From a virus, in IMG/VR virus record IMGVR_UViG_3300035180_001298, positions 1 to 28,259 of that record: a stretch of DNA of 28,259 bases. The stretch is one strand, 5' to 3'. The notes below the pieces were generated by a model, which saw only the letters and a list, made by a program, of their open reading frames with translations, made no database searches and had not been told where the DNA came from. How positions within the stretch are numbered: the first letter of the stretch is position 1; every line of letters starts with the position of its first letter. Positions 10,014 to 26,094 of the stretch are shown here, piece by piece. A program made the translations under genes and the position numbers.

Positions 10014-11245
10014 ACAAGCTAGAAGTTAACGCTGAAATCCCTAACTGGGCAATTGATTTTTATCAAACCGACATGCGTTATAAAGTTGCTTATGGCGGGC
10101 GCGGTAGTGGCAAAAGCTGGGGGTTTGCCTTGCTGATTGTACTCAAAATGATGCAATCGCCTATCCGCGTGTTATGCGCTCGTGAATTGCAAACATCAAT
10201 GCGTGAGTCAGTTCATCAGCTAATCAGCGAAACTATTAAGCGGATTGGGGCGCAAGAAGCATTTAACGTTCTTGAATCAGAAATCACATGCACGCTAAAT
10301 GGTAGCAGTTGTATTTTTAAGGGCTTAAAAGGCGTTAAAAACGATGCCAGTGCGCTCAAATCGTTCGAGGGGATTGATATATGCTGGATAGAAGAAGCGC
10401 AAACTGTAAGCCGAGAAAGCCTTGAAACACTAAAGCCAACAATCCGCAAACAAAACTCCGAGATATGGATAACGTTCAATCCATTACTGACAACTGATCC
10501 CGTTTATGTCGATTATGTGATTAACACACCAAAAAACGCCTTGGTGCGTAAGGTAAATTATTCCGATAACCCTTGGTTTGCAGATACAGCCTTACCAGAT
10601 GATATGGCGCATATGAAAGCAACGGATTATGAACGATACCGCCACGTATGGGAGGGTGAGTGCGTTACGCATACTGATGCGCAAGTGTTCAAAGGCAAGT
10701 GGCGCGTTGATGATTTTGAAACACCCGAGGGCGTTGTTTTTTATTTTGGTGCAGACTGGGGCTTTTCTGTTGACCCAACAACGCTAATCCGCTGTTTTAT
10801 TCAAGGCGGCAGTCTTTATATCGACTATGAAGCCTATGCTGTTGGGTGTGAAATCGACCACTTGCCAGCCTTATTTGATACCGTTCCTGAATCACGTCGA
10901 TACATCATCCGAGCCGATAGCGCACTTCCAGCAACGATAAGCTATATGCAGCGCAGGGGTTTTAAGATGCAAGCCGTTAAGAAAGGCGCTGGTAGTGTAG
11001 AAGATGGAATCTTGCACCTGCGCGGCTATAACGAAATCATCATTCATGATCGTTGCATTAAAACAGCAGAAGAATTTTTACGCTATTCGTATAAAACCGA
11101 CAAGCTAACAGGCGACGTCCAGCCTGTACTCGAAGACAAGTGGAATCACTGCATCGATGCGTTGCGCTATGCAGTAGAGCCGTTAATTAAATCCAGTCAA
11201 CCAGTCGCACTTTCCTACACCACATCAAAAGCGAGGTATCGTTAA
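10010..11245 (+). CDS. Terminase large subunit (PBSX-type packaging ATPase/nuclease)
   Basis: 411 residues, GTG start overlapping the small subunit stop. The ATPase half has the Walker A region YGGRGSGKSW (28-37), Walker B DICWIEEA (123-130) and the coupling motif TFNP (155-158). The nuclease half has the three expected acidic positions: D249 (FGADWGFS), D303 (RADSALP) and D384 (HCIDALRY). It moves DNA into the prohead through the portal and cuts it to length. The match to the PBSX/Terminase_3 layout is clear, which suggests headful or site-directed packaging of concatemers; the cutting mode cannot be read from the sequence. Confidence 0.95.
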   Translation: MNKLEVNAEIPNWAIDFYQTDMRYKVAYGGRGSGKSWGFALLIVLKMMQSPIRVLCARELQTSMRESVHQLISETIKRIGAQEAFNVLESEITCTLNGSSCIFKGLKGVKNDASALKSFEGIDICWIEEAQTVSRESLETLKPTIRKQNSEIWITFNPLLTTDPVYVDYVINTPKNALVRKVNYSDNPWFADTALPDDMAHMKATDYERYRHVWEGECVTHTDAQVFKGKWRVDDFETPEGVVFYFGADWGFSVDPTTLIRCFIQGGSLYIDYEAYAVGCEIDHLPALFDTVPESRRYIIRADSALPATISYMQRRGFKMQAVKKGAGSVEDGILHLRGYNEIIIHDRCIKTAEEFLRYSYKTDKLTGDVQPVLEDKWNHCIDALRYAVEPLIKSSQPVALSYTTSKARYR

Positions 11246-11574
11246 TGTCAGATTATCCAGAGCAACTTATCGAAATGGGCATTTTATTTGCCGATGGCTT
11301 TGCCCAGCAAGGCTTTGGTGACGAGCAGGCAATAACAGCTGCTTGCAAGATGCTGGAGTACATTCGCACCAATATGGGCGGCTCATTGATTTACATAAAC
11401 AAAGGCTCGAAATATGAAGCCGATGAGATAAAAGAAGAGATATGGAAAAAATTCAATGGGCGTAACCACGAGGAATTGCGCCGCGAGTATGGTACTTCTA
11501 TTCAGCATATTTATAGAATCCTAAAATCCGCGCGTGATAAAACATTCGCTAAAAATCAACAAAACTTAATTTAA
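11245..11574 (+). CDS. Mor/C-family transcription activator
   Basis: 109 residues. The pattern is that of Mu Mor (PF08765): an N-terminal helical dimer region, the beta segment MGGSLIYINKGSKYE (44-58) and a helix-turn-helix NGRNHEELRREYGTSIQHIYRILK (71-94). Mor activates Mu middle transcription at promoters lacking a -35 by binding a dyad upstream of the -10. Here the gene lies between the terminase and portal genes, not in an early regulatory block, and starts on the terminase stop. Two identical palindromes ahead of the capsid and baseplate blocks are good candidate targets. Confidence 0.85.
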   Translation: MSDYPEQLIEMGILFADGFAQQGFGDEQAITAACKMLEYIRTNMGGSLIYINKGSKYEADEIKEEIWKKFNGRNHEELRREYGTSIQHIYRILKSARDKTFAKNQQNLI

Positions 11575-14321: not shown

Positions 14322-14387
14322 ATGGATTTTGATGCCATTGTCTCCGACTCGCCTTCTCGTCTAATCTATTTTTTTAACATCGGTTAA
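14322..14387 (+). CDS. Possible 21-codon peptide ending inside the late-promoter palindrome
   Basis: ATG 14322 has an excellent Shine-Dalgarno (AAGGAG, 8 bases upstream) and reads MDFDAIVSDSPSRLIYFFNI-G to TAA 14385-14387, which lies inside the palindrome at 14372-14389. A 15-codon frame (14240-14287) overlapping the end of the F-like gene precedes it. The 180-base gap 14244-14423 holds nothing else except the promoter. It may be a leader peptide, a leftover of a lost gene, or chance. Confidence 0.3.
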   Translation: MDFDAIVSDSPSRLIYFFNIG

Positions 14388-14423
14388 AAGACTACACAAT
14401 CCTTGCGCGTTAAGCTGATAGCT
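14372..14423 (+). promoter_or_regulatory. Candidate Mor-type late promoter 1 (capsid block)
   Basis: A perfect palindrome TTTTAAC-ATCG-GTTAAAA (14372-14389), 34 bases before ATG 14424. The centre lies about 43 bases before the ATG, near the place where Mu Mor binds relative to its transcription start. No -35 hexamer is seen; a weak -10 such as TAAGCT (14411-14416) would start the RNA at or next to the ATG, and no Shine-Dalgarno precedes it. The same palindrome and spacing recur at 25713. Confidence 0.6.
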
Positions 14424-15299
14424 ATGAATAAACCTATTTATCTATCAGCGGCTTTAACGCCAGAATCAACAGACTGCACCACGAACCGCGCGTTTTCAGG
14501 TGTGGCGTACACTGGCGCGATGATTGAAAACCACGGCTGGTTGTCTAACGTCATTATCGACATCGACAGCATGACGATTGAGCCCAGCTTACAACTCTTA
14601 CTAGAACACGACACAAACCACGTTATCGGTACTGCTACGGCAGTCAAACAAGACTGTAAAGTGCTGGTCAATGGTTTACTGGTTAGCGCCATCGACAACG
14701 ACGCGCTTACTGTCTGCCAAAAAGCGCAAGCTGGAATTAGCTGGCAGCTGTCCGTTGGCTTGTACGATTATCAGCAACAAGAGTTAATCGAAGGTCAAAG
14801 CGAGGTGGTCAACGGCTTAACGGTCGAATATCCCGCCACTATCCTGCGCAACGCCGTACTCCGCGAGGTTTCTGTTGTTGCTCTTGGCGCTGATAGCGCA
14901 ACCTCATTAGCGATTTTTTCACGTAACTTAACCCAACAAGAGGATAACCGCATGGATGTAAAAGCCTTGCAAGAAGAAAACGCCACATTAAAAGCGCAGC
15001 TTGAGGCTACCAATGTGGAATTATCAACACTAAAAGCCGAATTTGCAGCCAAACAGCTAGAAGCGCGCACCAACGAAGTGAAAGCCTTGTTTGCAGCTAT
15101 CGGCAAAGAAGCAACTGAAGATGCCATTAAGCCCTATTTAAGTATGGATAGCGCGGCTTTTTCAGTCGTATCTGCCGACATGCAAGCGCTGAAGCCTAAA
15201 GCTAATGCCGCTTTATTTACTGCAACCACACAGCCAGCCGAAAAACCTGCTTTTGACCCAAGCAACGTTTACGGCGTTAACCGTTACAAAGGAGCATAA
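14424..15299 (+). CDS. Prohead protease with C-terminal scaffold region
   Basis: 291 residues from ATG 14424, which fits the promoter geometry better than TTG 14403. The protease half (about 20-165) has FSGVAYTGAMIENHGW, LLLEHDTNHVIGTA (H62) and WQLSVG (S110), the likely His-Ser pair of a herpes-type phage prohead protease. The C-terminal half is a scaffold: a charged coiled coil at 177-218 (VKALQEENATLKAQL...) and a long acidic helical tail ending NVYGVNRYKGA. Protease and scaffold shape the prohead and the protease then trims the scaffold. It is the first gene of the capsid block, followed by the decoration and capsid genes. Confidence 0.88.
   Translation: MNKPIYLSAALTPESTDCTTNRAFSGVAYTGAMIENHGWLSNVIIDIDSMTIEPSLQLLLEHDTNHVIGTATAVKQDCKVLVNGLLVSAIDNDALTVCQKAQAGISWQLSVGLYDYQQQELIEGQSEVVNGLTVEYPATILRNAVLREVSVVALGADSATSLAIFSRNLTQQEDNRMDVKALQEENATLKAQLEATNVELSTLKAEFAAKQLEARTNEVKALFAAIGKEATEDAIKPYLSMDSAAFSVVSADMQALKPKANAALFTATTQPAEKPAFDPSNVYGVNRYKGA
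14952..15299 (+). CDS. Nested in-frame scaffold protein
   Basis: An internal ATG at codon 177 of the protease gene has AGAGG 8 bases upstream and starts exactly at the scaffold coiled coil (MDVKALQEENATLKAQLEAT). It would give a 115-residue free scaffold, as in lambda C/Nu3 and Mu I/Z, where protease and scaffold share a frame. The start site is clear in the sequence; use of it is inference from those phages. Confidence 0.65.
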   Translation: MDVKALQEENATLKAQLEATNVELSTLKAEFAAKQLEARTNEVKALFAAIGKEATEDAIKPYLSMDSAAFSVVSADMQALKPKANAALFTATTQPAEKPAFDPSNVYGVNRYKGA

Positions 15300-15301
15300 C
15301 T

Positions 15302-15676
15302 ATGCGCACAGCAACTCAAACTGAAAACCCACGCGCTTTAGCGTTTTTATTGTCCGAAGGCGATGGCACGATTAGCCGTGAATCGGTTGTTATTGGCGCT
15401 GGCAAGTTAGTAGCTGGTACGGTATTAGGCAAGGTCACAGCAAGCGGCCAATACGTCGCGCATAATCCAGCGGCAACGACTGGCGAGCAAGCGGCTGTTG
15501 CAGTATTAGGTTACGACACAGACGCAACCAGCGCACCACAAACAGCGGTAGCGATTGTACGTGAGGCTGAAGTGAACGCACTTAAATTAACTTTTGCTGC
15601 AAACATTACAGCAGCACAGAAAACAGCGGCAATCACGTCGTTAGCGTCTAACTTTATTATTGTACGAGGTGTTTAA
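15302..15676 (+). CDS. Head decoration protein, lambda gpD-like
   Basis: 124 residues, beta-rich. The pattern FLLSEGDGTISRESVVIGAGKLVAGTVLGKV...GYDTDATSAPQTAVAIVREAEVNALKL belongs to the bacteriophage lambda head decoration protein D family (PF02924). It binds as trimers on the expanded capsid to stabilise it. It lies 2 bases after the protease and 2 before the capsid gene, the lambda order (protease, decoration, capsid). Length is close to gpD (110). Start ATG 15302 lies just after AAAGGAGC. Confidence 0.92.
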   Translation: MRTATQTENPRALAFLLSEGDGTISRESVVIGAGKLVAGTVLGKVTASGQYVAHNPAATTGEQAAVAVLGYDTDATSAPQTAVAIVREAEVNALKLTFAANITAAQKTAAITSLASNFIIVRGV

Positions 15677-15678
15677 CC

Positions 15679-16647
15679 ATGTTAATTAACGATATTATTA
15701 ATACTGATGGTTTTAGCCTATCAGAATTAACGGCAGCTATTTATAAAGCACCTTATATCCCGAATGGTATTGCTAAAGCTGGCTTGTTTTCTGAGTCAGG
15801 AGTTACTACTACTACGGCAACAATTGAGCTATATGATGGCGCGTTAGGTTTAATCCAAACATCTGCTCGCGGCACAGCACCTAGCGTTGTATCTCAAGAA
15901 AAACGCACACGCAAAACTTTTGAAGCGCCACGCATTGCAACGATGGAATCTATCCTTGCTGATTCATTGCAAAATCGTCGCGCATTCGGTAATAGCTCGA
16001 TGGATACGATTACTCTTGTTCGTGACCGTGCGGTTGCTCGTCTACGTAACCAAATCGAAATGACGCACGAGCACCAACGCGCTACTGCTTTACAAGGTAT
16101 TGTTTTAGACGCAGACGGTACGCCATTAATCAACCTATTCAATGAGTTTGGTTTGACGCAACAAGTGCTAACAGGTGTAGCAACGGCAACTGATGTGCGC
16201 GGTCAGATTTTTACGGCTATTACAATGGCTGAATCAGCATTGGGTAACGCAGCACCAACAGGTTACAAAGTGTTTTGCGGTAAAGCGTTCTGGGCAGCGC
16301 TGATCGCTAACAAGTCAATTGTTAATACTTACATCTATTCACAAGATGCGGCTGCTGTACGTGGTGACACAACTCAATCGTTTGTTTTTGGTGGTGTTGA
16401 GTTCATTCGTTACCGCGGTGGCTATATTGCTGACAACGAAGCTTATTTGTGCCCTGAAGGTGTACCAGACTTGTTTGTGTCTTATTTTGCACCTGCGGAC
16501 TATATGGAAACCGTTGGCACTATGGGCTTGCCTATGTACGCAAAAGCGTTTGAAATGGAACGTAACCGCGGCATTTTGTTAGAAGCACAATCTAACCCAT
16601 TGCACTTGGTTACTCGTCCAGATGCTGTTATCAAACTTACCGCGTGA
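15679..16647 (+). CDS. Major capsid protein, lambda gpE-like
   Basis: 322 residues of HK97 fold, family PF03864 (Phage_cap_E). Recognisable parts are MLINDIINTDGFSLSELTAAI (N-terminus), RAVARLRNQIEMTHEHQRATALQGIVLDADGTPLINLF (about 115-152) and the end VGTMGLPMYAKAFEMERNRGILLEAQSNPL. It forms the shell with the decoration protein. Length compares with 341 in lambda. Codon use is typical of an abundant structural gene. The capsid, decoration protein and protease are lambda-like, whereas the portal and F-like protein before them are Mu-like: a module boundary at the gap 14244-14423. Confidence 0.95.
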   Translation: MLINDIINTDGFSLSELTAAIYKAPYIPNGIAKAGLFSESGVTTTTATIELYDGALGLIQTSARGTAPSVVSQEKRTRKTFEAPRIATMESILADSLQNRRAFGNSSMDTITLVRDRAVARLRNQIEMTHEHQRATALQGIVLDADGTPLINLFNEFGLTQQVLTGVATATDVRGQIFTAITMAESALGNAAPTGYKVFCGKAFWAALIANKSIVNTYIYSQDAAAVRGDTTQSFVFGGVEFIRYRGGYIADNEAYLCPEGVPDLFVSYFAPADYMETVGTMGLPMYAKAFEMERNRGILLEAQSNPLHLVTRPDAVIKLTA

Positions 16648-16654
16648 GTTTAGT

Positions 16655-17119
16655 GTGATTACCGCCCAAGACCTAATCAATCGTTTTGACAATGCCGAGC
16701 TTGCCCAATTAACGGGCGGGCTTAGTATTGATAACGACCGCTTGCAGTTGGCTTGTGATGAAGCCACGCAGGAGGTTGATGGGGTGTTGGGTTCACGCTT
16801 TGCCTTTTATCGCTTTGCGGTGGTTTACCCCAGTGCGATAACAGATAAGGCGTTGCATATTGCCAGATACTGGTTATGGATTAGCTCATCCTTATCAATG
16901 AGCGACCAAGTACAAGCTGGCTATGATGCCGCGATGCGCTTCTTAAAGTCTGCTCATTTTGACCCTGATCAGTTTGGTGTTACGGCAACAGCGCAAACGT
17001 CAAGCATGGCAAGCACGCCGCGTACATTGCGTTATAACACCGATAAATTTAAGCAGCAGCACGACCCTTATTTGCCGTTAAACCCTGCCAGTATCGGGCA
17101 GGACTGGACGCCGTTATGA
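16655..17119 (+). CDS. Head completion/joining protein, Mu gp36-like (DUF1320)
   Basis: 154 residues from GTG 16655, chosen since the family normally begins a few residues before the DLxxRF motif (here ITAQDLINRFDNAELAQLTG). The ATG at 16622 lies within the capsid gene and would add 11 unlikely residues. The middle AIDNDRL-like part, LACDEATQEVDGVLGSRF and DKALHIARYWLW are typical of DUF1320. It joins the head to the tail near the portal. It overlaps the next gene by 4 bases. Confidence 0.88.
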   Translation: MITAQDLINRFDNAELAQLTGGLSIDNDRLQLACDEATQEVDGVLGSRFAFYRFAVVYPSAITDKALHIARYWLWISSSLSMSDQVQAGYDAAMRFLKSAHFDPDQFGVTATAQTSSMASTPRTLRYNTDKFKQQHDPYLPLNPASIGQDWTPL

Positions 17120-17643
17120 TAAACATTGCTATTGATGCCCGCGAACTTGAGCGAAAGCTGAATGCGCTAGGCAATGCTTTATCATCAAAGCGCCTGTTGC
17201 GTAATATCGGTAACGATTTAGTTGAGGGTGTTATTGCTGACCAGTTTAAGCAGGGGAGAGACCCATACGGAAACGCATGGAAAAAGCTAGCGTTCAGACA
17301 AGGGCAACCTTTGCGTGATACAGGAACGTTATCGGCAAGCTTTATGGCAAAAGAAGAGGGCGACAAGGTAATTGTTGGAACACCTGTTTCCTATGCCCCT
17401 ATTCATCAAAAAGGCATGGTTATTACAGCTAAACCGAACAACCCAGGCACAAACAGTATCGGTAAGCGATACGGTGCTAAAGCCTTAAAGTTTAAAGGCG
17501 GCAGCGGTGGCTTCATTTATGCCAAAAAAGTAACCATTCCCGCTCGCCCGATTTTACCTGAAGAAGGCAATTTGCCTGCTTCTTATCGTGAAAGCATCGA
17601 AGCGACGATAAATAAAGCAATTGATAAGGCGACTCGCTCATGA
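17116..17643 (+). CDS. Virion morphogenesis protein, Mu gpG / P2 gpS type
   Basis: 175 residues. IADQFKQGRDPYGNAWKKLAFRQGQPLRDTGTLSASF (about 40-76) and VGTPVSYAPIHQKG...IPARPILP (about 91-155) are the signature of the phage virion morphogenesis family (PF05069). The protein finishes tails and helps attach them to heads. It overlaps both neighbours by 4 bases, within the run of joining genes between capsid and sheath. Length fits the family. Confidence 0.9.
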   Translation: MINIAIDARELERKLNALGNALSSKRLLRNIGNDLVEGVIADQFKQGRDPYGNAWKKLAFRQGQPLRDTGTLSASFMAKEEGDKVIVGTPVSYAPIHQKGMVITAKPNNPGTNSIGKRYGAKALKFKGGSGGFIYAKKVTIPARPILPEEGNLPASYRESIEATINKAIDKATRS

Positions 17644-18104
17644 ACCAAATGCTAACACTAGAGCAAAACATCGTTAGCTTGCTAAAAGCAGCTATGCCAT
17701 CAGTCACGATTGCAGTAATGCCAAGCGGTGATGATGCTGTACTGGTTAGCAAAATGCCACGCGGTGGGTTTTATGTGCAATATCAAGGTTCACGCTTTAC
17801 CAAGCCGAATGGATTAGGCGCACAAAATCAAATCCGTGAAGTGCGATTAAGTGTGATTTTACTTTACCCTGATGCGAACAAACACAGCGACGCATACACA
17901 TTGCTTGATATGGCGCGGCAAGCATTACAAGGCGCTAATGTTGGCGCGATGTACCCTTTGGAGATTGAAGAGGAGCGTTTTGTTGACGCACAAAGTGGAT
18001 GGTGGAAGTACGCGCTTAGTGTATCAACTAGCTTAATGACATTTGCACCAGAACCAAAACCAGACCCGACCATTAAATTAATCACAACCAACACAGGACT
18101 ATAA
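17640..18104 (+). CDS. Tail terminator/joining protein, Mu gp37-like
   Basis: 154 residues of the Gp37 family (PF09646/DUF1834): LTLEQNIVSLLKAAMPSVTI at the start, GGFYVQYQGSRFT (about 41-53), REVRLSVILLYPDANKHSDAYTLLDMARQALQG (about 66-98). It probably completes the tail at the head-proximal end. It overlaps the gpG-like gene by 4 bases and precedes a small gene and the sheath, the Mu order 36-G-37-38-sheath. Confidence 0.88.
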   Translation: MNQMLTLEQNIVSLLKAAMPSVTIAVMPSGDDAVLVSKMPRGGFYVQYQGSRFTKPNGLGAQNQIREVRLSVILLYPDANKHSDAYTLLDMARQALQGANVGAMYPLEIEEERFVDAQSGWWKYALSVSTSLMTFAPEPKPDPTIKLITTNTGL

Positions 18105-18106
18105 AT

Positions 18107-18382
18107 ATGAACGCTTATTTATTTACAGGCACTCACCCGCAATTCGTGACTATTAACGGTGCTGAATTTGAAATGCAGCCCAATAATTCTGTTGACTTGC
18201 CCGATTGTGACTATGTACAGACACTGGTAGCGAAAGGGTTTTTAACGCCTGTCGATGCGCCTGTTGAAGCTCATACTGAAGAAGCAACAGCTGAAGCACC
18301 AGATGAGGCAAATGCTGAAGCACAAAATGAGACACAAACAGATTCACCAAATGTTGAAGTACCAGCAAAAAAAATCAACTAA
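18107..18382 (+). CDS. Small acidic protein at the gp38 position
   Basis: 91 residues. A short folded N-terminus (YLFTGTHPQFVTINGAEFEMQPNNSVDLPDCDYVQTLVAKG, a likely small beta domain) is followed by a disordered Ala/Glu-rich acidic tail (about 56-91) with repeats such as EEATAEAPDEANAEAQNE, then AKKIN. The place between the gp37-like and sheath genes is that of Mu gp38; I infer a tail-assembly role from context only. Its C-tail is encoded by GAAGCA-like repeats. Confidence 0.75.
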   Translation: MNAYLFTGTHPQFVTINGAEFEMQPNNSVDLPDCDYVQTLVAKGFLTPVDAPVEAHTEEATAEAPDEANAEAQNETQTDSPNVEVPAKKIN

Positions 18383-18400
18383 GAAAGGAGCACAAGCATA

Positions 18401-19606
18401 ATGCCAGCAAGTTATTTACATGGCGTCGAGACAATCTCCGTCACATCGGGCGCACGACCAGTATCAGTGGTTAAGAGCGCGGTGATTTTACTGGTTGGTA
18501 CAGCGCCAACTGGTCCAATCAATACCCCTACTTTAGTAATGTCAGACGTTGACGCTGCCAAATTCGGCACGTTTACAGCTGGTTATACTATTCCTTATGC
18601 GCTCGATGGTGTTTTTGACCAAGGCGCAGGCTTAGTTGTTGTTGTGAACGTTTATGACCCTGTTAAACATGCGGGCAACCCAGCTAACGTGACAGCCGCT
18701 GACATTATCGGCGGTTATGATTCAACAACGGGCAAAAGAAATGGTCTAGCGATTGCGCAAGATTGTTATACACTGTTCGGCTTCCGACCAAAAATCATTA
18801 TCGCCCCTGGCTATTGTACATCTGCCGCAGTTTCTACTGAAATGATTAACCAAGCGAACGGGCAGCGTGGTATTGCGCTGATTGATGCACCTATCGGTTG
18901 CACTTATGAGCAGGTAATTGCTGGACGCGGTGCAAGCGGTACAATTAACTTTAACACCAGTAGCGAACGCGCTTATTTGCTTTACCCAAGCGTTAAAGTT
19001 TACGACCCAGTTACAAATGCAACGCGAATCGAAGGCATGTCGCCACGTATTGCTGGTTTGATTGCTTCGACAGACCAAGCTGAAGGTTACTGGGTAAGCC
19101 CGTCTAACCACGAGATTGGCGGTATTATTGGCGTTGAGACCAGCTTAACAGCCGCAGTAAACGACCCTAACACGCAAGTAAACTTGTTGAACAGCAACGG
19201 CATTACCTCGATTTTTAATAGTTTTGGTTCAGGTTTACGTCTATGGGGCAACCGCACAGCTTCTTATCCTAGCAGCACAGCGGTAACTAACTTCTTGCCA
19301 GTGCGTCGTACGGCTGACATCATCCACGAAAGTATCGAGCTTGCGATGTTACAGTTTATTGATAGCCCAATTAATCAAGCAGTAGTGGACAGTATCCGCG
19401 AAACGGTTAATTCGTTCTTACGCACATTGGTTGGCCGTGGTGCATTGATTGACGGCTCTTGCACATTCGATAAAGCGAAAAATCCTAATACCGAATTGGC
19501 AGCAGGGCACTTAACCTTTGATATTACGTTCTTGCCACCAACACCAGCGGAACGCATTAGCTTCCAATCATTTATTGATATTAACCTTTACAAAGGGCTT
19601 AAATAA
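18401..19606 (+). CDS. FI: Contractile tail sheath protein (P2 gpFI / Mu gpL type)
   Basis: 401 residues. The N-terminus YLHGVETISVTSGARPVSVVKSAVILLVGTAP is the usual start of phage sheath proteins, and the C-terminal domain has NRTASYPSSTAVTNFLPVRRTADIIHESIELAMLQFIDSPI followed by LAAGHLTFDITFLPPTPAERISF. It polymerises round the tube and contracts on infection. Length is close to P2 FI (396). AAGGAG lies 10 bases before ATG 18401. It begins the tail module and overlaps the tube gene by 1 base. Confidence 0.96.
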   Translation: MPASYLHGVETISVTSGARPVSVVKSAVILLVGTAPTGPINTPTLVMSDVDAAKFGTFTAGYTIPYALDGVFDQGAGLVVVVNVYDPVKHAGNPANVTAADIIGGYDSTTGKRNGLAIAQDCYTLFGFRPKIIIAPGYCTSAAVSTEMINQANGQRGIALIDAPIGCTYEQVIAGRGASGTINFNTSSERAYLLYPSVKVYDPVTNATRIEGMSPRIAGLIASTDQAEGYWVSPSNHEIGGIIGVETSLTAAVNDPNTQVNLLNSNGITSIFNSFGSGLRLWGNRTASYPSSTAVTNFLPVRRTADIIHESIELAMLQFIDSPINQAVVDSIRETVNSFLRTLVGRGALIDGSCTFDKAKNPNTELAAGHLTFDITFLPPTPAERISFQSFIDINLYKGLK

Positions 19607-20124
19607 TGGCACAACAAATTAATAGCCTTTATGGGGCAAACGTCTACATGGACGGCAATAACTTAGCTGGTCGAATTTCAGAAATGGAATTGCCGACCTT
19701 ACAATCTAAGATGACTGATCATAACGTGTTAGGTATGGCTGGTGCGTTGGAAGTGTTCAGCGGGTTCGAGAAGCTAGAAGGCAAAATGACTTGGAACAGC
19801 ATTCACCCTGACGTTATGAGCAAGTTATTTAACCCGTTAAAAAATGTGCAGCTACAATTGCGTGGCTCATTGCTAACGCACACAGCGCAAGGCGTATCGC
19901 AAGAAGTGCCTTACGTGTGTGTTGTTACGGCTAATTTTAAGAATGTGCCGCTTGGTGGATTCAAACCGCAGTCTGGCGTTGAACTAGCTGTTGATTATGG
20001 CGCGACGTACATCAAGCTAACTATCGACGGCGCAGACCATTTAGAGTTTGATGTTATGAACAACGTCTATAAAGTTGACGGAGTTGATGTTCTTGATACA
20101 TACAAAACTAATTTGGGATGGTAA
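19606..20124 (+). CDS. FII: Major tail tube protein (P2 gpFII type)
   Basis: 172 residues, the same as P2 FII. Recognisable parts are SLYGANVYMDGNNLAGRISEMELPTLQSKMTDHNVLGMAGALEVFSGFEKLEGKMTW at the start and AVDYGATYIKLTIDGADHLEFDVMNNVYKVDGVDVL at the end. Rings of this protein form the inner tube for DNA passage. The ATG shares its A with the sheath stop, so translation is coupled. Confidence 0.96.
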   Translation: MAQQINSLYGANVYMDGNNLAGRISEMELPTLQSKMTDHNVLGMAGALEVFSGFEKLEGKMTWNSIHPDVMSKLFNPLKNVQLQLRGSLLTHTAQGVSQEVPYVCVVTANFKNVPLGGFKPQSGVELAVDYGATYIKLTIDGADHLEFDVMNNVYKVDGVDVLDTYKTNLGW

Positions 20125-20128
20125 TTAA

Positions 20129-20416
20129 ATGAAGATTACACGCGAACAAAGCGCTAATAATCTACCCTTCGACCCTGACACGGTCGAAGTGGTGGTGCGT
20201 GACGCAACAGGTATGGACATGGAAAACGCTTATCGTGCCGCTGGTAAAGATGCCAGCGAAACACGATTAATGGCGGCAGTTATTGCACAAACAGCAACTT
20301 TCGACGGCAAGAAGCTAGTCATGGAAGACGTATTGCAGCTACCAGTTAAGCTACTTGGTGAATTGGGAAACGCATTGGCAGCGTCATCGGACGCGAGCGA
20401 GACTATGTCAGCTTAG
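20129..20416 (+). CDS. E: Tail assembly chaperone, short form (gpE-like)
   Basis: 95 residues. PFDPDTVEVVVRDATGMDMENAYRAAGKD and VMEDVLQLPVKLLGELGNALAAS are typical of the helical chaperones that coat the tape measure before tube assembly. P2 gpE has about 91 residues. The last third overlaps an open -1 frame that reaches 20529; a slippery heptamer at 20365-20371 joins the two. It follows the tube gene and precedes the tape measure, as in P2 and lambda. Confidence 0.88.
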   Translation: MKITREQSANNLPFDPDTVEVVVRDATGMDMENAYRAAGKDASETRLMAAVIAQTATFDGKKLVMEDVLQLPVKLLGELGNALAASSDASETMSA

Positions 20417-20529
20417 TGCTTTACTTAACCACGCAGGGCGGCTTTAGTTATGCGGATTGTTGCACTATGCCGATTAGTCGCCTTGTATGGTGGGCTGAAC
20501 AGGCGCAAGCGGTATTGTCTAAAGACTAA
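20129..20529 (+). CDS. Tail assembly chaperone, frameshifted long form (gpE+E'-like)
   Basis: A -1 shift after codon 81 (AAC, 20369-20371) continues in the frame CGC 20371 to TAA 20527-20529, adding 52 residues for a total of 133. The new part reads RIGSVIGRERDYVSLVLYLT, then QGGFSYADCCTMPISRLVWWAEQA to SKD, resembling the C-terminal half of gpE'-type chaperones. There is no start codon or Shine-Dalgarno for a free E'. In P2 and lambda the same arrangement makes a minor long form that recruits the tape measure. Confidence 0.85.
20365..20394 (+). promoter_or_regulatory. Programmed -1 ribosomal frameshift signal
   Basis: GGGAAAC at 20365-20371 is in phase as G GGA AAC (X XXY YYZ), the class of the lambda G/T site GGGAAAG. 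Nine bases downstream a hairpin GCGTC-ATCG-GACGC (20381-20394) can stall the ribosome. The -1 frame is free of stops from here to 20527. Confidence 0.85.
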
Positions 20530-20747
20530 TGCCGCAAGCCTTGAATGGTGCTAAGGATAAACGCTGGAATCATGAGCAACACAAGGCATATTCCAGCCGC
20601 TATCACCGAGGGAATCGACACGGCAATCATGGCTAAAAAATCAAGACCATGCGCCACATTCACCGACCAAACAAGGTCGATAATGATGCTAAACCAGATA
20701 ATAAAGGGTTGTGTATTGTCTGCTAACAGGTCTAAAGGGTCACGCAT
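20526..20747 (-). CDS. Possible antisense two-span membrane protein
   Basis: 73 residues from ATG 20747 (a start at 20768 is less likely since it lies in the tape measure gene and has no Shine-Dalgarno; GGTGG lies 10 bases before 20747). Two hydrophobic segments are clear: about 14-28 (PFIIWFSIIIDLVW) and 37-67 (DFLAMIAVSIPSVIAAGICLVLLMIPAFIL). The gene fills the 221-base gap between the gpE' stop (20529) and the tape measure start (20751) almost exactly, and the opposite frame in the gap is not protein-like. Role unknown; a holin or exclusion protein is possible but unsupported. Confidence 0.55.
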   Translation of the reverse strand: MRDPLDLLADNTQPFIIWFSIIIDLVWSVNVAHGLDFLAMIAVSIPSVIAAGICLVLLMIPAFILSTIQGLRH

Positions 20748-20750
20748 ATT

Positions 20751-23069
20751 ATGAGCACCACCATGCAATTAGGGATTGCGCTAGGCTTTTCGGGCGCAGC
20801 AGCATTAAAAGGTTTTAGTAATCTTAGCAAAACAGCTAGCGCTTTTAAAGCACAAGTTGAAGGGATTAAGGGAAGCAAGCAATTAATAAAGGACTTGCAA
20901 GCCGCTGAAAAAGAGCTTGCGCGGCTAAAATCACAATCCACAACAAGATTATTTACCAGTGGCACAGAAGCACAAATTAAAACTTTGCGCAGTCAGTTAA
21001 AAGCCGCTGGTGTTGATACAAATAACCTAAAGAACGCCACGCGCGAACTGAATGCCGAATTAGCTAAAACGCGCCTCAGTCAATCACAAGAAGCATTCCA
21101 GCAAGCACAAAGCCAGCTTATAAGTACCGCAGCCGTTGGTTATGTCGCGGCTAAACCAATCACAGCAAAAGCAAAAGCCGAGGATGATGTTAAAGATATT
21201 TCAATTACTGGCGAATTTACACCAGAGCAAGAAGCCGCGCTAGGCTTTACCCTGCGCAAAGCTGCGCTAGACATGAACCAGTCTCTCGATTCTGTTGCAG
21301 ATGGGGTAAAGACTTTAGTCGCTGGTGGTATTCAGTCTGCTGATGAACTTAACCGTTATGCCCCAGTTATTGCCAAAACTGCTACGGCTACCCGTGCCCA
21401 AATGGATGACATTGGCAACACCTTTTTAGCGCTTGCGAACAATATGAAAATCAGCGCGGCAGATAGTGAAAGCGCAATGAATATCATGATTAAATCAACA
21501 AAACTTGGGCAGGTTGAGTTTAAAGATATGGCTAAATGGATGCCGCAATTAACGCCCATGCTTGCGGCTATGGGTATGACTGGTAAAGAAAGCGTTGCCC
21601 AGCTTGCCAGTATGTTGCAAGTGTCTAAAATTGGCGCAGGAACGGCAGACGAAGCAGGGAATAACCTTAAAAACCTGTTGACCAAAATCAATGCGCCCGA
21701 TACCGTTAAAGACTTTGGAAAAGTAGGCATTGACTTAAAAGCTAGTCTTAAAGCGTCCGCATTAAACGGCGTTGACCCTGTTACCGCTATGTTAGACTTG
21801 GTCGAAAACTACATGGCTAAAGCCCTAAACCCCGCTGACTTGGCTAAATATCGAGCAGCTTTGGCTGAAAAAGACGGCGCAAAATCCGCTGAAATGTTTA
21901 AAAGCCTTGGTGAAGCTGGGAATATGGGGCAACTATTCCAAGACATGCAAGCGATGGGTGCTTTACGTGCGCTGTTGCAAAACAAAGACAAGCTGAAAAG
22001 CTTTAGCGCCGATTCTTTAGCAGCAGGTAATAGCGATATGCTTGGGGCGGACTTTGAGAAGCGGATGCAAGGCTTTTCTGAACAGTGGAAAGGCTTAAAT
22101 ATTGCACTTACCGAGTTTTCCGTATCGGTTGGCGATTTATTATTACCAGCAATCAAGACTATCACAGGTTACTTAAAAGATGCTGCCCTCTTTGTTGGTG
22201 ACTTTGTAAAAAATAATCCTGAAATAGCAAAAATGGCGGGGTATGTATTAGCGGGCGTGGCTGCATTTAAGGCGTTATCGGTTGGTATTTTGTTGGTCAA
22301 GGCATCATCATTAGCAACTTCTGCCGCATTGACGGTGCTAAAAGTCGCGGTCATGAGCAACCCAGTTACCGCAGCGGTTATCGCCATTGGTACTGCCGCC
22401 TATCTACTTTATGAAAACTTTGCACAGGTACGCGGATTGTTTAATGGGCTTTGGGATGGTTTTATGGTTGGCTTGTCACCTGTCATTAAGCTATTCGACG
22501 GCTTTGGCAGCAAAGTTTCTGGCTTAATAGAGAGCATTACGGGCATTAAAGTTGCTACTGATGAAAGCTCATTGAGTTGGCAAGTATGGGGTGAAGGGGC
22601 TGGCATTGCCATTGGCAGCGCAGTCAGCTCTGTTACGGATTTTATTGGTCAGGTTATTTACCAAGTCTGGTCATTGCCCGACACTATTAAAGCCGCTTTT
22701 GAAGGCTTGAAAAAGTGGTTTGCTGAATTATGGCAGGACATTTTAGGCAGATTTACAGGCTTTATTAACACGACAAACGAAGCCTTGAACAGTATCTTGC
22801 CAGAAAAGTACCAGATGCACCTTAACGCGCCACAGCTTAAACAGTTACCAGTGCCAGACATTCAGGCAAAACTAACAGCGGCTAACGATACCCGCGCAAA
22901 AGTCGGCGATGTTATCCACTTTAGCCCCAATATAACATTGCCAGCTGGCACAAGTGAACAAACTGTATCAAGCGTTAAACAAGCGTTAAGCATAAGCCAA
23001 ACGGAGTTCGAGCAACGCTATAAAATTATGATGAAACAACAAACACGCACGGGGTATGCAGCACAATGA
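20751..23069 (+). CDS. Tail tape measure protein
   Basis: 772 residues. A long coiled-coil N-terminus (about 25-125, with LIKDLQAAEKELARLKSQ) leads to a TP901-type core (about 150-400: AALGFTLRKAALDMNQSLDSVADGVKTLVAGG, LANNMKISAADSESAMNIM, WMPQLTPMLAAMGMTGKESVAQLASML). A hydrophobic stretch lies at about 490-560 (VLAGVAAFKALSVGILLVKA, TAAVIAIGTAAYLLYENF), likely inserted in the host membrane on infection. It sets tail length; at about 0.15 nm per residue the tail would be roughly 115 nm. The start at 20751 has only a weak Shine-Dalgarno; ATG 20763 is an alternative. It overlaps the U gene by 4 bases. Confidence 0.95.
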   Translation: MSTTMQLGIALGFSGAAALKGFSNLSKTASAFKAQVEGIKGSKQLIKDLQAAEKELARLKSQSTTRLFTSGTEAQIKTLRSQLKAAGVDTNNLKNATRELNAELAKTRLSQSQEAFQQAQSQLISTAAVGYVAAKPITAKAKAEDDVKDISITGEFTPEQEAALGFTLRKAALDMNQSLDSVADGVKTLVAGGIQSADELNRYAPVIAKTATATRAQMDDIGNTFLALANNMKISAADSESAMNIMIKSTKLGQVEFKDMAKWMPQLTPMLAAMGMTGKESVAQLASMLQVSKIGAGTADEAGNNLKNLLTKINAPDTVKDFGKVGIDLKASLKASALNGVDPVTAMLDLVENYMAKALNPADLAKYRAALAEKDGAKSAEMFKSLGEAGNMGQLFQDMQAMGALRALLQNKDKLKSFSADSLAAGNSDMLGADFEKRMQGFSEQWKGLNIALTEFSVSVGDLLLPAIKTITGYLKDAALFVGDFVKNNPEIAKMAGYVLAGVAAFKALSVGILLVKASSLATSAALTVLKVAVMSNPVTAAVIAIGTAAYLLYENFAQVRGLFNGLWDGFMVGLSPVIKLFDGFGSKVSGLIESITGIKVATDESSLSWQVWGEGAGIAIGSAVSSVTDFIGQVIYQVWSLPDTIKAAFEGLKKWFAELWQDILGRFTGFINTTNEALNSILPEKYQMHLNAPQLKQLPVPDIQAKLTAANDTRAKVGDVIHFSPNITLPAGTSEQTVSSVKQALSISQTEFEQRYKIMMKQQTRTGYAAQ

Positions 23070-23914
23070 TTGGACTTTTTGGCGATGTGACATTTGGGTT
23101 AATTACCTACTTCACTGGTGTATCGCAGGAACAGACGGCGAATTATGCAAGTCTTGAGCGTATCGGACAAAAACCACTTTTGCAGTTTACTGGTTTTGGT
23201 GCGGATACTTATAAGCTTGATATGTTGTTTCATGTTCGCTTCTGCGATCCACAGGTAGAAATAGATAAGTTAAAAGGAATGTTAGCCAGCAAGAAAAGTG
23301 GCGGCTTAGTGCTAACAAACGGCACGCACGCTGGCTGGTTTGTATGTAATAGTATTAGCATCACCAGCACACAAATGACCGCGGATGGTAGCTTGGTGCA
23401 AGCTACGGTATCGGTATCACTAACTGAAAGCCCTCCGCTACCGATTGGTGAAACAAACGGCGACGTTTCGCACCCAGCCAATGCCCTTGGAGATAAACTA
23501 AAACTAACAGATGACGGCAAAGGGATGACCATTGCAAAAGCGTTAAGCACAGCGAGAACAGTAATGAGCGCGGTAAATCGCGGTATTGCCTTCGCTAAAG
23601 CATTAAAGAGTGGCAATCCGACAAGGGTGCTAGGTCAAATGCCAGGACTGGCGAACGACGCAGTAAAAGCTGCCAATGCGTTAGGGATTGACACGAGCGG
23701 AATATCAGCGGATGACCTAAAGTATGTTAATAATATGAGTAGATCAAGCATTGAAATGGTTAATATAAGTAACGTTGCCAGAAATATGAACGCAAGCAAT
23801 ATCGAGCAGGGTATACAGGCAATGGAAGGCAGTATGCAAAACGCCAACGGCTACATGAGTAGCGTCAGCCCTTGGTACTCGGAAAATATTTCTAATGCGG
23901 TGGCGAGAAAATGA
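23066..23914 (+). CDS. U: Tail protein U-like (P2 gpU) with long C-terminal extension
   Basis: 282 residues. The first 135 or so match P2 gpU: MIGLFGDVTFGLITYFTG, RIGQKPLLQFTGFGADTYKLDMLFHVRFCDP and LVLTNGTHAGWFVCNSISIT...ATVSVSLTESP. P2 gpU has about 159 residues; here about 120 further residues follow, helical and Ala/Asn/Ser-rich (e.g. ALSTARTVMSAVNRGIAFAKALKSG, NMSRSSIEMVNISNVARNMN). Such extensions occur in Mu-like tail proteins at this position (N or P). It probably sits at the tail tip or hub. It overlaps neighbours by 4 bases on both sides. Confidence 0.9.
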   Translation: MIGLFGDVTFGLITYFTGVSQEQTANYASLERIGQKPLLQFTGFGADTYKLDMLFHVRFCDPQVEIDKLKGMLASKKSGGLVLTNGTHAGWFVCNSISITSTQMTADGSLVQATVSVSLTESPPLPIGETNGDVSHPANALGDKLKLTDDGKGMTIAKALSTARTVMSAVNRGIAFAKALKSGNPTRVLGQMPGLANDAVKAANALGIDTSGISADDLKYVNNMSRSSIEMVNISNVARNMNASNIEQGIQAMEGSMQNANGYMSSVSPWYSENISNAVARK

Positions 23915-24135
23915 ACGAAATTGCTTATTACATCCACCACGTCACAACTCAAGACGACCGATTGGACTTGATTAGTTTTAAGTATTTCGGAAACGTTAGC
24001 ATGGTAAGCGATATTGTCGCCATTAATCCAAACCTGCCGCTAACTGACACGCTGCCAACAGGATTAACGGTTAATGTCCCTGTTTATAAAACAACAAAAC
24101 CAACGACACAGGCAAAACCAGGGTGGTTAACATGA
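23911..24135 (+). CDS. X: Tail protein X (LysM-like)
   Basis: 74 residues, family PF05489. DDRLDLISFKYFGNVSMVSDIVAINPNL...LPTGLTVNVP is a LysM-like fold common to all gpX proteins, which are thought to link the tail tube tip with the baseplate hub. P2 gpX has about 67 residues. It overlaps the U and D genes by 4 bases each, so the three are translationally coupled. Confidence 0.93.
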   Translation: MNEIAYYIHHVTTQDDRLDLISFKYFGNVSMVSDIVAINPNLPLTDTLPTGLTVNVPVYKTTKPTTQAKPGWLT

Positions 24136-25124
24136 GTCTCATTCCTGCGCTTAACATCAACTATAACGGCAAAAGCACTGGGCGCGATTTAACCGATAGC
24201 CTGATAAGCTTTGACTATCAGGACAACATTAGCGACAGAAGCGACACGGTGAGCATTACGTTTGAAGACGTTAGCGGTTTTTGGCGCGATAACTTGCCAG
24301 ATACAGGGGCAACCTTAGATATTTCATTCGGTTACGAGGGTTCATTAGTTGATATTAATAACCTGTTTGAAATTGACCGCATTAAATATACAGGGTCGCC
24401 AAGTGTCGTGACCTTATCAGGTAACGCAGCACCAAACCAAAAACAGCTACGCACCCGTATTAGTCAAAGCTGGGATAATCAAAGCCTACAAAGCATCATT
24501 AAAACAGTTGCCCAGCGCACTGGACTTGCAACCGATTTACGCTTTAAAGACATCCCATTAGACTACACAGCGCAAGACAACGAAACCGACCTTAACTTTT
24601 TGATTCGCTTGTGTGACGAGGCTGACCTTAATCTAAAGCTGAATAACAATACGATAACATGCGTACCGATGTCAGATTTAATGGCACAGAAACCCTTTTA
24701 CACAATACCAGAAGACGTATTGATTAGCTGGGATGTCGATATTGATTTAGTAGAAACGGTTAAAAAAGTTGAACGCAGAAAGCACGACACCACAACCAAA
24801 GAGTTAATTGTTTATGCGGTTGATGAAAAGGGCAGCGTTATTCAGACAGGTACAACAAAAGCCGCACAAACCACGAAAAACGTTAAGCGCGAAATTGCCA
24901 GACAAACCCACGCAGCGGCAACCAATGCCGATTTAGCCCGTGCAAACAGAGACCGCAAACGCATTAGCTTTCGCTGTTTTGGCATTCCTGTTATCGCCGC
25001 TGGGCGAGTCATCACGTTAGTTGGCATGGGTAAAAATGCCAGATCGTGCTTAGTGCAAACAGTAAACCACACGATTGATAAAAGCAGCGGTTATATCACA
25101 TCCGTGGAAGGGTGGCTATTATGA
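24132..25124 (+). CDS. D: Baseplate hub protein D (P2 gpD type)
   Basis: 330 residues from ATG 24132, which overlaps the X stop; GTG 24123 is less likely. Typical parts are LIPALNINYNGKSTGRDLTDSLISFDYQDNISDRSDTVSITFED, SLQSIIKTVAQRTGLATDLRF, DNETDLNFLIRLCDEADLNLKLNNN and the ending TVNHTIDKSSGYITSVEGWLL. It is a gp27/VgrG-like hub on which the spike V sits. P2 gpD has about 387 residues. It overlaps the V gene by 4 bases. Confidence 0.94.
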   Translation: MSLIPALNINYNGKSTGRDLTDSLISFDYQDNISDRSDTVSITFEDVSGFWRDNLPDTGATLDISFGYEGSLVDINNLFEIDRIKYTGSPSVVTLSGNAAPNQKQLRTRISQSWDNQSLQSIIKTVAQRTGLATDLRFKDIPLDYTAQDNETDLNFLIRLCDEADLNLKLNNNTITCVPMSDLMAQKPFYTIPEDVLISWDVDIDLVETVKKVERRKHDTTTKELIVYAVDEKGSVIQTGTTKAAQTTKNVKREIARQTHAAATNADLARANRDRKRISFRCFGIPVIAAGRVITLVGMGKNARSCLVQTVNHTIDKSSGYITSVEGWLL

Positions 25125-25708
25125 TTAACAGCGTTATCGGTATTGTTAAGGAACGAGACCCAGCAACCTACAGAATCCGCGCTACGCTTCCTGAATATGA
25201 TGGGATGGTTAGCCCTTGGTGCGACGTATTGGCAACCAAAACCGCGCTAGACAAACATGCCGCTTTACCAGACATTGGCGAACAAGTCGTTATCTTGTTA
25301 GAGTTAGACCTTAACCGAGGTTTTGTTATCGGCGCAGTTTATAGCAATGTTGACACAGTCCCAACAACAGACGGCGACACAACAATAACCAAGTTTAGCG
25401 ATGGCGCTTACGTTGCTTATAACCGCAAAACCCATACCCTGACCGTATTAACCAGCGGCACGATTAACGTAACAGCATCGACCATCAATATCACCGCAAC
25501 AAGTACCCATAACGGCAATATAACCGTTAACGGTAATGTGAGCATTAACGGAAACCTTAGCGCAAGCGGCAACGCGAACGTTGGCGGTAATGCAAGCGTA
25601 TCAGGCGCATTAAGAGCAGCTGGTGGCATTAGTGGTAGTGGCGGACTATCGTTTGAAGGTCATACTCATACCGATAGCCGAGGAGGTAGTACCAGTACGC
25701 CGCATTAG
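25121..25708 (+). CDS. V: Baseplate spike protein V (P2 gpV type)
   Basis: 195 residues from ATG 25121, which overlaps the D stop. An OB-fold N-terminus (about 1-85: SVIGIVKERDPATYRIRATLPEYDG, LPDIGEQVVILLELDLNRGFVIGAVYS) is followed by a beta-helix of short Asn/Gly repeats (about 125-165: NGNVSINGNLSASGNANVGG) and a tip with GHTHTD (H181 and H183). In P2 gpV an HxH motif from each of three chains binds iron at the spike point. It is the last gene before the second late promoter. Confidence 0.94.
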   Translation: MINSVIGIVKERDPATYRIRATLPEYDGMVSPWCDVLATKTALDKHAALPDIGEQVVILLELDLNRGFVIGAVYSNVDTVPTTDGDTTITKFSDGAYVAYNRKTHTLTVLTSGTINVTASTINITATSTHNGNITVNGNVSINGNLSASGNANVGGNASVSGALRAAGGISGSGGLSFEGHTHTDSRGGSTSTPH

Positions 25709-25712
25709 TATT

Positions 25713-25764
25713 TTTTAACATCGGTTAAAATACACCGCCACCTTGCTCACGCGATACTAACAGC
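25713..25764 (+). promoter_or_regulatory. Candidate Mor-type late promoter 2 (baseplate block)
   Basis: The same perfect palindrome TTTTAAC-ATCG-GTTAAAA (25713-25730), again exactly 34 bases before an ATG (25765), begins 4 bases after the V stop. Identity with copy 1 extends over 20 bases (TTTTTTAACATCGGTTAAAA) and is largely lost downstream, save CCTTGC. GATACT at 25753-25758 is a possible -10, 7 bases before the ATG. No -35 and no Shine-Dalgarno are seen. Confidence 0.6.
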
Positions 25765-26094
25765 ATGAGCAGCACTATTACCCAAACCTTCATCCTTGCT
25801 AATAATGGCATCACCAGCAAACCCTTAACAGGTAGTGAGCTGGTGTTGAGTGTTGCTCAAAATATTTCAAACATCATCACGACGATACAGGGTCAAGACC
25901 GCCTTCGTCCTGATTTTGGCTCTCGCGTCATTGATTGTTTAGATAAGCCGCTACAAAAAGCAAAACTATGCGTAATTTCAGCGATTGCCGACGCTATCAG
26001 CAAATGGGAAAAGCGCGTTAGCCTGCTTAAAACCGAGGTAACTAGCACCGATAGCAGTGGTTTAATTGTAACAATAAGCTGGAAACTGTTATGA
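25765..26094 (+). CDS. W: Baseplate wedge protein W (gp25-like)
   Basis: 109 residues of the GPW/gp25 family: LTGSELVLSVAQNISNIITTIQGQDRLRPDFGSRVIDCLDKPL, then ISAIADAISKWEKRVSLL. It is an essential baseplate wedge part related to T4 gp25; P2 gpW has about 115 residues. The start is fixed by the conserved N-terminal region and no Shine-Dalgarno precedes it, in line with the promoter just upstream. It overlaps the J gene by 4 bases. Confidence 0.94.
   Translation: MSSTITQTFILANNGITSKPLTGSELVLSVAQNISNIITTIQGQDRLRPDFGSRVIDCLDKPLQKAKLCVISAIADAISKWEKRVSLLKTEVTSTDSSGLIVTISWKLL

Follow-up and report, generated by a model that had tools for sequence, protein, structure and literature searches.

The viral DNA analyzed here (IMG/VR record IMGVR_UViG_3300035180_001298, positions 1 to 28,259; this whole stretch of 28,259 nucleotides (nt) is termed the window) contains two exact copies of an 18-mer, TTTTAACATCGGTTAAAA, at 14372-14389 and 25713-25730, each separated by exactly 34 nt from the ATG of a late structural gene. 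The first copy precedes a head maturation protease gene (14424..15299, + strand; PHROG 3244, E 9e-25), and the second precedes a baseplate wedge W gene (GPW_gp25; 25765..26094, + strand; Pfam PF04965, E 2e-10). A 109-amino-acid transcription activator of the Mor family is encoded between the terminase large subunit and the portal (11245..11574, + strand). An initial annotation, made from the letters of the window, had placed both sites, named the protease, W and Mor-family genes, and read the arrangement as a Mor-type late promoter pair. The placement of the sites is exact and the gene identities are confirmed, while the promoter reading is supported by the geometry of the Mu Pm promoter, by conservation, and by recurrence in independent Mor-family phages. 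We estimate a probability of about 0.8 for the joint claim that the pair of Mor-type late promoters is real and conserved, with likely leaderless starts.

The identity between the sites covers a 20-nt block, TTTTTTAACATCGGTTAAAA, and, as initially described, ends within the spacer: the sequence outside of the block, both upstream and downstream, differs. No further copy of TTTTAACATCGGTTAAAA at three or fewer mismatches was found in the window (chance expectation, 0.07). The two sites had been called perfect palindromes, which holds for their 7-bp inverted repeats, although the central ATCG is not symmetric. A better reading of both dyads is TTTAA-CATCGG-TTAAA, a 16-bp element with 5-bp inverted repeats and a 6-bp spacer, which is present at both sites (dyad 1, 14373..14388, center 14380.5; dyad 2, 25714..25729, center 25721.5; both + strand) and is the proposed site of a Mor dimer. 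The A of the ATG lies exactly 43.5 nt from the dyad center at 14424 and again at 25765, in agreement with the earlier estimate of about 43. Each site also has a proposed −10 hexamer at a nearly fixed distance, with no −35: TAAGCT (14411..14416, + strand; of the form TAnnnT) begins 30.5 nt from the center of dyad 1, and GATACT (25753..25758, + strand) begins 31.5 nt from the center of dyad 2, a distance longer by 1 bp, and lies 6 nt from the ATG. Neither a −35/−10 promoter match nor a terminator was found at either window site.

Both starts also lack a useful Shine-Dalgarno (SD) sequence, as the initial annotation had recognized. Pairing with the anti-SD is weak for the protease (−3.2 kcal/mol), and for W (−1.5 kcal/mol) it is the weakest among 35 gene starts; most of the other weakly paired starts in this set abut or overlap an upstream gene. 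A short open reading frame (ORF) of about 21 codons (14324-14389), with AAGGAG upstream, enters dyad 1 and stops inside it. The relative L029 has the same arrangement, and other relatives differ in their upstream sequence.

Comparison with phages Mu and P2

The protein encoded at 11245 belongs to the Mor family (Pfam PF08765, E 7e-22; 77.9 bits vs. a cut-off of 24.9) and to PHROG 532, late transcriptional activator. It matches Mu Mor (PDB 1rr7, E 6.6e-7), and the structures of both Mu Mor and Mu C are matched by sequence. Because this is the single Mor-family gene in the whole record, with no C, one activator probably serves both promoters. The Mor site of Mu Pm is a 16-bp element, bound by a dimer, that consists of two 5-bp inverted repeats and a 6-bp spacer; it lies at −51 to −36, with its center at −43.5 and no −35 (PMC4390567, PMC4287176), which matches the distance of about 43 that the initial annotation had given. 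Mu also has an UP element with a proximal subsite (PMC4390567). In the Mu record, the sequence of the Mor element is AGTAA-AGCCGG-TTAAT, and TATCCT, taken as the −10, begins 30.5 nt after the dyad center, as at site 1 (its position derives from that record and the primer coordinates in PMC4390567).

The likeness of the window sites to Mu Pm includes the 5+6+5 dyad 43.5 nt before +1 (a predicted +1 in the window), a 6-bp spacer containing G/C, an identical right half (CGGTTAA), the lack of a −35, an equally distant −10, and an A/T-rich stretch upstream, which at site 1 occupies −57..−52 (14367..14372, + strand), where the proximal UP subsite of Mu falls; the two activators also share a Pfam family. 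Unlike the window sites, Mu Pm controls the middle operon, from which C is made, and the gene after it is SD-led, whereas the window has two sites directly before late structural genes, an ATG at the predicted +1, and no second activator that could be found. The Mu promoters activated by C are similar in placement, with PI before the head protease, as in the window, and Plys before lysis genes, as in relatives. However, C is a separate paralogue and its mRNAs are SD-leadered, whereas the window has one Mor-family protein and predicted leaderless mRNAs.

The left block of the window is not Mu-like and encodes a CII-like CP76 protein, KilAC/Rha, an IstB/DnaC-like ATPase, and Terminase_3. No transposase (MuA/MuB) was found in the left-block proteins scanned, which represent part of the ORFs of a possibly incomplete contig, and the window is not assigned to the Mu-type transposable phages. 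In P2, late promoters are served by a zinc-finger activator (Ogr) acting at a TGT-N12-ACA box, and the leaderless gene is the baseplate gene V, next to W. These are, like the proposed window pair, activator-dependent phage late promoters with a leaderless first gene, and differ from it in the zinc-finger activator and the box. TGT-N12-ACA boxes occur six times in the window (vs. 9.4 expected) and none is near the sites, which does not indicate promoters of the Ogr type. Leaderless genes are known from both lambda and P2 (PMC4633059).

Conservation and recurrence of the sites

The exact 18-mer is present in 26 viral-contig stretches, 18 of which are relatives of the window, and in all 18 it lies before the protease or W; the remaining eight are unrelated sequences and were set aside. 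Loci found independently, by protein similarity, have the same placement. The site is thus conserved ahead of both genes in related phages, as the initial annotation had anticipated. Six protease and nine W sequences agree in all 20 columns of the dyad arms and differ strongly in the other upstream columns, while one of six columns of the 6-bp spacer varies in each set (TATCGG in L055; CATCTG in L053). The proposed −10 of site 1 reads TAGGAT in L046 and L055, the latter a contig of a Thiotrichales metagenome-assembled genome that provides the sole host assignment obtained. The longer relatives yielded no third site of the window type.

Two close relatives, L047 and L048, encode proteases that are 70-71% identical to that of the window, and share a different element before this gene, CAGTGAACCACTTCC, followed by AATACT, 6 nt, and an ATG without an SD. 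In the same slot as the window activator, L047 has a different Mor-family gene (747-1127; Pfam E 1e-7), for which BLASTP gave no significant match with the window Mor; the L048 contig ends short of this slot. From these sequences, L047 appears to have swapped its activator and promoter site together, in what would be a natural specificity swap. When the L047-type site was sought before W, only the two known loci turned up, among matches not recognized as relatives. The closest relatives of the capsid genes among named phages (Pseudomonas U6 and Turba, and Curvibacter PCA1) belong to other lineages and have no annotated Mor gene.

We also surveyed the loci of Mor-family genes in named phages and in genomes of Gammaproteobacteria, accepting any 5+6+5 dyad if its −10 was spaced as in Mu and if it formed a pair within the genome. 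Clear dyad pairs were identified in L087 and L088 (TATCA..TGATA), in L089 and L091 (TCTCA..TGAAA, 4/5 symmetric), and in L132, a sequence with 67% G+C (ATTAA..TTAAT), and in each of these the dyad center is 42.5 or 43.5 nt from the ATG. The genes that follow encode an endolysin or DUF5675, and a Mu-type protease I; these are the places of Plys and PI in Mu. Where the 5+6+5 dyad is perfect and a −10 lies at +30.5/31.5, an ORF starts at 41-45 in nine cases on the Mor strand, compared with none on the opposite strand and one in the reversed sequence.

The layout is also present in the cultured phage Bise, before the endolysin, protease, and W, and in Komp_PAO1_1, which has four dyads of the form TTTAA-ACC[CT]GA-TTAAA and the layout before W at 43.5. 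PhiKM, KP12, AFS-2018a, and a Salmonella remnant likewise have it before W. In these other lineages the dyad sequence differs, while the −10 (+30.5/31.5) and the ATG (+42.5 to +44.5) keep their positions, and the gene that follows is a protease, lysis, or W gene. The PhiKM-like W promoter region is found in 627 of 5426 complete Escherichia coli genomes (∼12%), mostly at an identity of at least 95%. The Salmonella remnant is a Mu-like element of Salmonella Infantis SARB27 (L140:3925-18345) that retains a Mor-family gene and W with the leaderless layout (STM4219 and STM4203, respectively, in the numbering of Salmonella LT2), and has glycosyltransferase/GtrA-like genes between V and W.

Predicted leaderless starts and alternative explanations

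All 27 sites that we tabulated have 6 or 7 nt between the end of a −10-like hexamer and the ATG, and a normal start 7-8 nt after the −10 would therefore coincide with the A of the ATG or with the preceding base. These sites were preselected for their geometry and the table describes a class; the tests against chance are the 18-mer mismatch count, the paired-dyad search, and the survey of ORF starts in opposite-strand and reversed sequence. Judged by position, an RNA start at the ATG is strongly favored.

Several observations weigh against the interpretation of the window sites as a Mor-type pair with leaderless starts. The proposed −10 of site 1 (TAAGCT) has only three of six matches to TATAAT, and the dyad of L047 and L048 is weak and lies ∼46 rather than 43.5 nt from the ATG. 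No single relative besides the window has both sites, because the close relatives are mostly metagenome fragments. Furthermore, Mor-type sites with SD-led leaders occur before the lysis and protease genes of both AFS-2018a and PhiKM, in L056, and in Mu. Because the family includes such leadered members, predicted leaderless starts are a recurrent design among Mor-type promoters and not a rule.

The leadered members also lend some weight to the alternative that the promoters are of the Mor type and the mRNAs are not truly leaderless, with RNA starting a few nucleotides upstream of the ATG, or translation starting at a later codon, and the 43.5-nt distance reflecting a short leader. In L087, L088, and L091, GGAGGC occurs directly before the ATG and could be taken for an SD, although it ends 1 nt from the ATG and is too close to serve as one. 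The constant interval of 6 or 7 nt between −10 and ATG argues against a leader, as do L012 and L054, in which the spacer is shorter by one base and yet GATACT remains 6 nt from the ATG, i.e., the −10 shifts together with the start codon. The proteins of relatives also align from this ATG onward, and we regard the alternative as unlikely.

It is much less probable that a different regulator (the S24 repressor, the CII-like protein, or a host factor) uses the dyads as operators and that they lie near these genes by chance. Dyads are common operators, and the window does encode a repressor and a CII-like protein. However, there is no copy at the immunity region, the window holds only the two late-gene sites, and their position relative to the −10 and the ATG is that of an activator replacing a −35. 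Unrelated phages that carry Mor-family genes have the layout too, and it does not precede W in four phages for which the matches listed include no Mor-family gene.

The suggestion that the sites are copies of the Mu strong gyrase site (SGS) or another structural DNA element, prompted by the presence of TTTAAACnnnGTTTAAA or close variants between the head genes and the protease of Vibrio, Shewanella, and Pasteurella Mu-like phages at the annotated gyrase cut site of Mu, can be practically dismissed, given that those dyads lie 141-280 nt from the ATG with a different spacing and, as far as seen, once per genome, whereas the window has two copies at a fixed 34 nt, one of them before W. These palindromes had been considered as candidate Mor sites before the protease and were dropped, given their place at the Mu gyrase position and far from the ATG. 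They occur at L036:15973, L037:18881, L041:17124, L044:16742 (less symmetric), and L045:16738, and may represent a conserved SGS motif.

Proposed mechanism and implications

According to the Mor-type interpretation, both window sites would be late promoters of the Mor/C type that depend on an activator. This activator, the Mor-family protein encoded at 11245, would be made along with the early/terminase block and would bind as a dimer to TTTAA-N6-TTAAA, standing in for a −35, and the host sigma70 RNA polymerase would be recruited to the TAnnnT-like −10 about 25 bp downstream. Transcription would begin with the A of the first ATG, such that one activator would switch on together the capsid block, which begins with the protease, and the baseplate block, which begins with W, and the first gene of each block would be translated from a leaderless mRNA.

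Most of the Mor-type promoters with the leaderless layout have an additional feature, an inverted repeat whose arms flank the −10 and whose end coincides with or adjoins the ATG, with hairpin z-scores that are often below −3. It is found in PhiKM (L136:17248-17271), L142, L087, L088, L089, L091, L132, and L042, and is absent in the window lineage. Examples include GGGGGC-AATACT-GCCCCC-ATG, GCCCTG-TAATAT-CAGGGCT-ATG, and CCTCTA-TCC-TAGAGGC-ATG; the arms stay complementary though their sequences differ. Because Komp_PAO1_1 has such a repeat (GCCGCC-GATCAT-GGCGGC, after the dyad at 37669) in a seemingly leadered promoter, such repeats may influence the promoter instead of translation. A broader proposal, which we advance tentatively and at somewhat less than even odds, is that a widespread class of Mor-family late promoters places the RNA start precisely on the AUG of the leading late gene, be it protease, endolysin, or W, and that in most of these the repeat would fold read-through RNA, leaving only freshly initiated leaderless RNA to be translated.

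Both Mor-type activation and leaderless phage mRNAs have been described before. No earlier report of leaderless Mor-type promoters was found in the literature searched, a search that mostly did not extend to subscription journals, and as far as these papers show, the novelty appears to lie in the combination, in the presence of a second site before W, and in the distribution over many phages. The shared geometry provides a rule for finding late promoters in Mor-family phages, namely a 5+6+5 dyad with a −10 at +30.5 and, often, an ATG at +43. It also suggests that Mor-family phages commonly translate their late structural genes from leaderless mRNAs, which would be unexpected if leaderless mRNAs mostly encode weakly expressed regulators.

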